64,000 nt of DNA from positions 62,001 through 126,000 of the forward strand of contig JAHJOO010000014.1 in NCBI GenBank assembly GCA_018820275.1, given 5' to 3'. Source of the stretch: Alphaproteobacteria bacterium (GTDB lineage: Bacteria; Pseudomonadota; Alphaproteobacteria; Caulobacterales; Caulobacteraceae). Below, one piece after another: positions 15,544-64,000 of the stretch (positions are counted from its first letter, which is position 1; every line of letters begins with the position of its first letter). A program made the translations under genes and the position numbers. Below the pieces are notes generated by a model that saw only the letters and a list, made by a program, of their open reading frames with translations, was not told the origin of the DNA and did no database searches.

Positions 15544-16296
15544 ATGCGGTTCCAGGACAAGCTCGCCATCGTGACCGGCGGCGGGCGAGACATCGGCCGT
15601 GAGGTGTCGATCCGGCTGGCCGCCGAAGGCGCCCGCGTGGTCATCGCCTACGCCAACGACGGCAACTCGGCCGAGGCGACGCTCGCGACCATCCGGGAGG
15701 CCGGCGGACAGGCCGTCGTGCACCGCGCCGATCTGACGAAGGCGGCCGAGGCGACCGGTCTGATCGACGCGGCGCTGACCGCGTTCGGTCCCTGCATCGA
15801 CGTCGTCGTGAACCTGACCGGCGGGATGGTGGAACGCCGCCCCCTCGCCGAGATCGACGAGGTCTTCTTCGACACGGTCATGAACCTGAACCTGAAGTCG
15901 ACCTACCTCGTCACCCGGGCGGCCGTGCCGCACATGGGTCGGGGCGGGGCGATCGTGAACTTCTCGTCCCAGGCCGCGCGCGACGGCGGCGGGCCCGGCG
16001 CGTCGATCTACGCCACGGCCAAGGGCGCGGTCACGACCTTCACCCGCGCCATGGCCAGGGAGCTGGGGCCGCAGGGCATCCGCGTGAACGCCCTGACGTG
16101 CGGGATGATCGCCACGCGCTTCCACGACGACTTCACCCGGGACGAGGTCCGCGCCTCCGTGGCCGCGGCCACGCCCCTGCGCCGCCAGGGCGACGCCGCC
16201 GAGGTGGCCCGGACGGTGGCCTATCTGGCGTCCGACGACGCGGCGTTCGTCACCGGCGTGAACCTGGACGTCAACGGGGGCCTGTACTTCTCGTGA
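15544..16296 (+). CDS. SDR oxidoreductase; probable DEH (unsaturated uronate) reductase by context
   Basis: TGGGRDIGRE cofactor motif, YATAKGAV catalytic motif; between MFS and hydrolase in the alginate locus. Confidence 0.8.
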   Translation: MRFQDKLAIVTGGGRDIGREVSIRLAAEGARVVIAYANDGNSAEATLATIREAGGQAVVHRADLTKAAEATGLIDAALTAFGPCIDVVVNLTGGMVERRPLAEIDEVFFDTVMNLNLKSTYLVTRAAVPHMGRGGAIVNFSSQAARDGGGPGASIYATAKGAVTTFTRAMARELGPQGIRVNALTCGMIATRFHDDFTRDEVRASVAAATPLRRQGDAAEVARTVAYLASDDAAFVTGVNLDVNGGLYFS

Positions 16297-61824: not shown

Positions 61825-62106
61825 TCAGGCGCGGGTGTCGATCACCGAGCCCGAGGCGTAGTCGGCACCCTTCATCAGATCGACGACCTGTTCGCGCGGC
61901 ACCTGCCGCACGACCTCGCCGGTCAGCCGATCCAGGGTCTTGTAGATGTAGGAGCCGGCGCTCGGCCCCTCCTCGATCACAAGCCTGTACCGCGCCGCCT
62001 GTTCGGCCTCCTTGAAGGCCGGCGAACGGTCGAAGGTCCCCGTGGTCGCGGCACCCGAGGGCGCGGCGATGGGGCCGATGCGGGCTATTTTGGCATTGGG
62101 TTCCAT
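61825..62106 (-). CDS. FlaG-like flagellar protein
   Basis: YKTLDRLTGEVVRQVPREQVVDLM; between two flagellin genes. Confidence 0.65.
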   Translation of the reverse strand: MEPNAKIARIGPIAAPSGAATTGTFDRSPAFKEAEQAARYRLVIEEGPSAGSYIYKTLDRLTGEVVRQVPREQVVDLMKGADYASGSVIDTRA

Positions 62107-63193: not shown

Positions 63194-63228
63194 GCTCACT
63201 GCCCGGCAAGTTCTGCCGGGCAGTGAGC
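63194..63228. repeat. 15-bp perfect inverted repeat, FlbD/ftr-like enhancer candidate
   Basis: GCTCACTGCCCGGCA-AGTTC-TGCCGGGCAGTGAGC; further CTGCCGGG copies at 63244 and 63266. Confidence 0.6.
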
Positions 63229-63273
63229 CGTCTGCGGCAAAACCTGCCGGGCCTCCGGGCACAATCTGCCGGG

Positions 63274-63552
63274 TCAGGGGTCGGCGAGCGCCCGTTCGGC
63301 GGCGAGACCCTCCAGCGCCAGACGGCGCGCGCCGTCGCAGGCGATCAGGGCGGCGCCCCGCTCCGCGTAGACCCGCTCAAGGTCCGCGAGAGTCGCCGGA
63401 TCCGGCAGCACGGGCAGTCGGCACGGCGTCGTCGCGGCCGCCGGCAGACTGATCCTCGGGGGCGTCGCAGAGGTCGGGGGCGAGCCCGCACAGGCGGCGG
63501 TCAGCGTCACGCAGACGAGCGGCGCGGTCCGGCGGAAGAGGCAGGTGGGCAT
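63274..63552 (-). CDS. Rz1-like o-spanin lipoprotein candidate
   Basis: Short Cys-lipobox protein (VCVTLTAACAGS), Pro-rich; starts inside the Rz-like ORF in another frame. Confidence 0.5.
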   Translation of the reverse strand: MPTCLFRRTAPLVCVTLTAACAGSPPTSATPPRISLPAAATTPCRLPVLPDPATLADLERVYAERGAALIACDGARRLALEGLAAERALADP

Positions 63553-63850
63553 CGGGGGACTCCCTGACGGCCGCGGTCAGGTCGGCCACGATGGTCGTGG
63601 CCGCCGCGGTCCGGCGATGGTGGTGTTCGAGACGAACGGATTGCTCGGCCTCGGCCCGGGCCAGTCGGGACGAGGCAGCGGCGGCGGCCTCGGCCTGCGC
63701 CAGCCGGACCTCGAGCGCCGCGATGCGGCGCGAGGCCCGGTCGAAGGGGTCCCAGCGAAAGCCCAACGCCGGGGCGAGCCCCAACACGACCAGCAGGGCG
63801 GCCGCGGCGACAGCGACCCCCACCCCGAGCCTGCGGAGCGCGGGGCTCAT
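63377..63850 (-). CDS. Rz-like i-spanin candidate
   Basis: N-terminal TM (LGVGVAVAAAALLVVLGLAPAL), Ala/Glu-rich coiled-coil-like middle; ATGA overlap with the endolysin gene. Confidence 0.55.
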   Translation of the reverse strand: MSPALRRLGVGVAVAAAALLVVLGLAPALGFRWDPFDRASRRIAALEVRLAQAEAAAAASSRLARAEAEQSVRLEHHHRRTAAATTIVADLTAAVRESPDAHLPLPPDRAARLRDADRRLCGLAPDLCDAPEDQSAGGRDDAVPTARAAGSGDSRGP

Positions 63851-63999
63851 GGGTAGGCCCTTCGATCCAGCTCGAAATGCGGACCGTCCCGCAGGCGGGG
63901 CCAGTCGCCGCCCCAGACGAGGGCGACGGTCCGACGCCGGGCGGCGGCCTTCATCGCCGCCGCGATGCGGGGATACAGGGGCCAGTCCCAGCGGACCTG
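63847..63999 (-). CDS. M15-family peptidoglycan endolysin, C-terminal part (truncated by window end)
   Basis: Minus-strand translation VRWDWPLYPRIAAAMKAAARRRTVALVWGGDWPRLRDGPHFELDRRAYP*; WGGDW...DGPHFEL matches M15 L,D-endopeptidase lysins. Confidence 0.7.
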   Translation of the reverse strand, partial: QVRWDWPLYPRIAAAMKAAARRRTVALVWGGDWPRLRDGPHFELDRRAYP

Positions 64000-64000
64000 A

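Follow-up and report, generated by a model that had tools for sequence, protein, structure and literature searches.

A putative operon of five to six genes, encoding a DUF2793 protein, a small ORF, a holin-like protein, an endolysin and an Rz/Rz1 spanin pair, was identified; its distal end lies in the window, and it probably serves the RcGTA-type gene transfer agent (GTA) of Brevundimonas by lysing the producer cells. The lysis genes are best read as a domesticated holin-endolysin-spanin module, its function being predicted from sequence. For these genes, the initial annotation had proposed a prophage remnant, or a detached lysis module of a GTA or of a tailocin. The GTA lysis module is favoured because the DUF2793 gene lies in the same operon, the genes are conserved genus-wide and their promoter is like that of the GTA cluster; evidence for a tailocin was not seen.

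The lysis genes and their setting

The source genome measures 2.82 Mb, and the window, meaning the whole stretch of 64,000 nucleotides that was analysed (G000:C6:62001-126000), stops 751 bp short of the contig end. The minus-strand gene order at this end is the C-terminus of a Gly-rich protein, a 50-aa ORF, an 86-aa protein, a 127-aa endolysin, Rz, Rz1 and flagellin (Table 1). It had been suggested that a holin be sought past position 64,000, and the extension revealed, besides the complete endolysin, a two-TM holin-like gene, then the 50-aa ORF and finally the Gly-rich C-terminus of a DUF2793 protein.

Table 1. Features of the lysis locus in the window (window positions)
Feature	Position	Strand	Basis
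M15 L-Ala-D-Glu-type endolysin, C-terminal part in window	63847..64000	-	phrog_465, Peptidase_M15_4, ChiX 5opz
Rz-like inner-membrane spanin subunit, 157 aa (predicted)	63377..63850	-	phrog_214, TM helix at the N-terminus, ATGA shared with the endolysin gene
Rz1-like outer-membrane lipoprotein spanin subunit, 92 aa (predicted)	63274..63552	-	Nested +1 in Rz, LTAAC, Pro-rich
Intergenic repeats, cassette/flagellin boundary	about 63194..63274		Repeat inspection

The start side of the endolysin gene reaches C6:126230, 230 bp beyond the window. Profile searches with the complete protein matched phrog_465 (E 3e-58) and Pfam Peptidase_M15_4 (E 4e-11), the M15 metal-site motifs are conserved (SRHLTGHAVDV and DGPHFEL), and the nearest solved structure is ChiX (5opz, E 5e-40). 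An M15 endolysin C-terminus overlapping Rz through ATGA had been described from the window, and the positions agree with this (endolysin stop 63847-63849 on the minus strand, Rz start 63850). Directly before the endolysin, the 86-aa holin-like protein possesses two hydrophobic peaks (2.09 and 1.42) and had no family match in profile searches; this two-TM protein is a candidate holin.

The identity of Rz/Rz1 as a predicted two-component spanin holds. The TM-bearing Rz-like gene of the initial annotation indeed encodes one hydrophobic helix at its N-terminus (Kyte-Doolittle 2.6 at residue 8) and an Ala-rich, heptad-like stretch, with a match to phrog_214 ("Rz-like spanin", E 1.8e-5). The Cys-lipobox, Pro-rich ORF said to begin out of frame within Rz and to run past its end was likewise recovered: it starts 298 nt into Rz in the +1 frame, ends 103 nt beyond it, carries the lipobox LTAAC and matches phrog_456 ("Rz-like spanin", 2.5e-6) as well as PF23793 LysC "Rz1-like" (6e-5, under the Pfam gathering score). 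Conservation of these ORFs in relatives was also found. The 4-nt endolysin/Rz overlap (ATGA) is present in 22 of the 24 genomes with a script-found Rz ORF, the remaining two (G033 and G050) being cases where the wrong reading frame was picked, whose rows are unused as evidence. All script-found Rz1 ORFs but one show the +1 frame and a lipobox of the T-[AST]-[ASNG]-C type; the exception (G222) is a mis-picked ORF and its row is similarly unused, and the lipobox Cys is invariant across the aligned set. Because the endolysin/Rz overlap, the +1 frame and the lipobox recur across genomes, the nested layout is more than chance. Estimates of dN/dS (0.05-0.24 for the endolysin, 0.19-0.82 and 0.20-0.71 for the overlapping Rz and Rz1, respectively) indicate that the cassette proteins are under purifying selection.

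Related Rz/Rz1 pairs were also seen at loci L237-L239, L244-L246, L250, L252, L254, L255 and L260, several of them named Phenylobacterium. These were put aside, as their endolysin is of the Peptidase_M15_3 type and the loci that were read closely are phage-like or murA-adjacent; prophages or another domesticated lysis locus are suggested as alternatives for them.

Between Rz1 and the flagellin gene there are three 18-nt repeats of the CGGCAAN4TGCCGGGC type (CGGCAA..TGCCGGGC; 63204-63274), as well as a 15-bp inverted repeat without mismatches at 63194-63228; the coding strand of this interval showed no T-run terminator. The repeats are probably flagellin regulatory DNA, possibly sites for an FlbD/ftr-like flagellar regulator. 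Further into the window (61825-62106, minus strand), a conserved 93-aa protein that appears to resemble FlaG-type proteins is encoded between two flagellin genes.

Operon organisation and distribution in Brevundimonas

The N-terminal part of the Gly-rich protein forms the start of another contig (G000:C34) and identifies it as a DUF2793 protein; the Gly-rich end on C6 and the DUF2793 piece on C34 appear to be one gene broken within the Gly-rich repeat, an assembly break seen again in several relatives. In a complete relative (G013), the order is ECF sigma factor, anti-sigma factor, DUF2793 protein (492 aa), 55-aa ORF, 91-aa TM ORF, endolysin, Rz/Rz1 and flagellins, and the genes from DUF2793 through Rz overlap by 4 nt each. 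The overlapping DUF2793-to-Rz genes are taken as one operon. The gene order, overlaps included, is the same in nearly all of the 27 relative loci examined; among these, Rz was not found in G211 and G151, the spanins are retained but holin and endolysin lost in G269, and the endolysin is lost in G259. Relatives bearing the cassette include B. diminuta ATCC 11568, B. aurantiaca, B. viscosa, B. halotolerans and B. bacteroides.

A hairpin (ATCTCCG...CGGAGAT-ATG) lies just before the DUF2793 start (about 16050-16091 of locus L037, and equivalents in relatives) and is conserved. Its arms seemingly change together between genomes and the Shine-Dalgarno sequence lies within it, making it a possible translational control element; Caulobacter homologues seemingly also have an inverted repeat at this place.

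An Rz-like protein, usually in single copy, was identified in 54 of 61 genomes of the same genus and in none of 40 genomes from other genera of the order. In a 200-genome sample of Caulobacteraceae, for which the counts were made by hand from listed rows, an endolysin of at least 65% identity occurs in 39/45 Brevundimonas versus 0/155 other members of the family; one genome of another genus encodes an endolysin at 63%, without DUF2793 or GTA. DUF2793 was detected in all 45 Brevundimonas and in 64 other Caulobacteraceae of the sample, and GTA_TIM (PF13547) in 39 of the 45 (one being a weak partial match) and in 58 others. In 33 of these 39 genomes the endolysin and DUF2793 share a strand and are no more than about 2 kb apart; in the other six the assembly breaks at this place. 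A few Brevundimonas genomes (G176 and G269) have the GTA cluster and lack the endolysin.

The position of the cassette between the ECF sigma/anti-sigma pair and the flagellin genes is conserved in relatives. The initial annotation had called the placement beside flagellin genes unexpected and pointed to synteny in relatives as a check; the adjacency itself was confirmed in this way and looks to be one of position rather than of function. A fortuitous neighbour, with the lysis genes being part of the flagellar locus or going with the upstream ECF sigma/anti-sigma pair (for example, to remodel peptidoglycan locally as the flagellum is assembled), would explain this conserved position; it is nevertheless highly improbable. 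Spanins and holins are not known to take part in flagellar assembly, and the GTA-like promoter described below also speaks against it. In B. bacteroides (L229), about 3 kb separate the cassette from the nearest flagellin genes, which are on the opposite strand. Furthermore, one lineage (G058, G048 and G247; loci L150, L151 and L152) carries a stand-alone holin-endolysin-Rz/Rz1 set in a chromosomal setting near the same ECF/anti-sigma pair, without DUF2793 or flagellin, and these cassettes therefore argue against a flagellar role. In the regions fetched for these three genomes, no GTA-type promoter was recognised and the terminase was not found.

GTA genes, regulators and the operon promoter

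The RcGTA tail fibre rcc00171 belongs to the DUF2793 family (PMC10883770; PMC8265664). It has been described that the tail-fibre homologue of C. crescentus, CCNA_02456, is strongly induced by GafYZ, and that nine of the ten loci with the highest induction in this species have GafY bound upstream (PMC9632790). The source genome encodes a GTA head-tail cluster on contig G000:C7. Of the 27 Brevundimonas genomes checked, 25 have a gene of GafY size with a DnaA-C domain, and at about half of the loci read the next gene overlaps it and encodes 229-248 aa, in the place of GafZ; the GafYZ-like naming is based on this domain and the order of the genes rather than on a comparison with CCNA_01111/01112.

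For the promoter comparison, an alignment of the GTA head-tail promoters from 12 genomes was anchored on the start region of the cluster's first gene, and a 55-column matrix built from these alone was run over the cassette loci in a leave-one-genome-out manner. This anchored matrix replaced a de novo motif search on the operon promoters, which was dropped as it picked the coding end of the upstream gene. The 12 GTA promoters have in common an IHF-like AATCAA..TTG and a GCCTGAGGA element. Among the 16,000-40,000 positions scored per locus, the operon promoter takes first place in 16 of the 26 genomes and falls in the top 0.05% in 20 of them, counts that are not fully independent, the genomes being related. 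The best-scoring stretch lies upstream of DUF2793, with its end in most cases 41-45 nt from the ATG. With eight column-permuted matrices, 0-2 first places were obtained, and stretches upstream of other genes at the same loci reached the top 0.05% in 4 of 270 cases.

The operon promoter was also more similar to the GTA promoter of its own genome (0.446) than to those of others (0.396). As high a match to the own genome was obtained in 0 of 5000 permutations (P 0.002-0.003 after thinning of close pairs); for random windows from the cassette loci, the own-versus-other difference was 0.0005 +/- 0.0085. In one genome (G040), TCTTCCGGCCTGAGGA is common to both promoters, with the IHF-like element 37 nt upstream. 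The operon promoter of the source genome ranks only 68 on the general matrix, yet its own GTA promoter is its best match of 13, and in a near relative (G018) the two promoters depart together from GCCTGAGGA in the same way. By these comparisons, the lysis operon promoter resembles the GTA head-tail promoter type, and the two, although unlinked, co-vary between genomes. At two GTA promoters (G013 and G015; L135 and L147), CCATAGT was observed, about as far from the start as expected; within it lies ACTATG, the GafY box of C. crescentus, in reverse complement.

Both the cassette and the GTA head-tail cluster are near-universal in Brevundimonas, and genomes with a broken GTA retain the cassette. 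Decaying GTA clusters, with GTA_TIM lost, truncated or split, were found in G254, G231, G272, G222, G259, G189, G275, G040 and G045. DUF2793 and mostly the lysis genes remain in these genomes, in some of which the capsid genes are partial or absent; capsid genes are degraded in G254 and G231 and missing from G222 and G272, and the cassette is retained in all four. Such persistence could reflect recent GTA losses, and it also fits a GTA-independent role. One such role is that of a Type 10 secretion system, a dedicated lysis cassette releasing folded proteins as do ChiWXYZ of Serratia or YenLC of Yersinia entomophaga. As the solved structure nearest to the endolysin is ChiX, which belongs to a Serratia lysis cassette, secretion is a live rival, and the Serratia cassette, which releases protein by lysis, has the same order of holin, endolysin, i-spanin and o-spanin (PMC10847048). 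It is an unlikely explanation all the same: the Brevundimonas operon is shared with a GTA tail-fibre family, lacks a secreted enzyme gene and has a GTA-type promoter that matches within its own genome.

Origin of the cassette and comparison with known lysis systems

A P2-like prophage in one relative (L154, G275:C2:727000-746999; GPO scaffold, gpP-type terminase) carries a corresponding holin-endolysin-Rz-Rz1 set, with identities of 67% for the endolysin (against the G013 protein), 35% for Rz and 44% for Rz1. Phage records, including E. coli phages that carry P88 in their names, have an endolysin of 56% identity. Capture of the lysis cassette from a P2-like prophage is plausible on these similarities. 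This prophage and the phage-type families throughout the operon also fit a reading in which the tail-fibre and lysis genes are left over from a decayed siphophage or P2-like prophage and have no present role. A remnant of this kind is quite unlikely, and as a present state the prophage remnant of the initial annotation is largely refuted: the same minimal gene set occupies the same place across nearly the whole genus, its endolysin is under purifying selection, the nested Rz1 frame is preserved and the promoter is common to the GTA cluster. No integrase, head, capsid or packaging genes, nor other phage genes in the flanks, were recognised around the G013 locus (a simple ORF list covering ~16 kb upstream and 20 kb downstream).

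The cassette of P2-like phages, with its lambda Rz/Rz1-type spanin, is alike in gene order, nested out-of-frame Rz1 and protein families, whereas the Brevundimonas set stands apart from phage head, tail and replication genes and is inherited vertically within the genus. The Type 10 secretion clusters ChiWXYZ/YenLC are also domesticated holin-endolysin-spanin clusters outside phage, with an endolysin homologous to that of Brevundimonas in ChiX; the Brevundimonas cassette is tied to a GTA tail fibre and a GTA-like promoter rather than to a chitinase/toxin regulon. For GTA release, Rhodobacter capsulatus likewise employs phage-type holin and endolysin genes outside the head-tail cluster (rcc00555/rcc00556, endolysin/holin), and its DUF2793 tail fibre (rcc00171) is also located outside that cluster. 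Compared with this system, Brevundimonas adds a spanin pair and places the lysis genes and DUF2793 in one operon.

In the favoured reading, as a GTA lysis module, activation of the GTA programme, presumably by GafY/IHF as in Caulobacter, would switch on both the head-tail cluster and the lysis operon, so that tail fibre and lysis proteins would be made together. The holin would give the endolysin access to peptidoglycan, and the Rz/Rz1 spanin would disrupt the outer membrane, upon which the cell would burst and GTA particles be released. Induction of the operon along with the GTA, and actual lysis activity, are predicted from the genes and promoter.

The question addressed is how GTA producers among the Caulobacteraceae burst. 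In C. crescentus, GTA lysis proceeds via the CARD-NLR-like LypABC, holin-endolysin genes being reported absent; of 11 GTA-encoding Caulobacter species, just 4 have a complete LypABC, and most of those surveyed lack it (PMC13236601). LypABC acts in the same bacterial family, with a related GTA and for the same task; it is a repurposed immune system without holin or endolysin, in contrast to the classical phage cassette of Brevundimonas. In a text search judged by titles, abstracts and term counts, no report of a Brevundimonas GTA lysis operon, or of a GTA with a spanin, was found. On balance, we favour the view that the Brevundimonas GTA is released by an overlapping-gene tail-fibre/holin/endolysin/spanin operon that was derived from a P2-like prophage and brought under GTA control, and that sister lineages of the family recruited entirely different killing machines for the same GTA, a phage cassette in one and the immune-derived LypABC in the other. 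GTA lysis modules as such are already known; if true, this would be one with a full spanin pair, operon-linked to the tail fibre. Should Brevundimonas use the operon, release systems would be freely swapped onto one conserved GTA, and the whole genus would offer a testable comparison.
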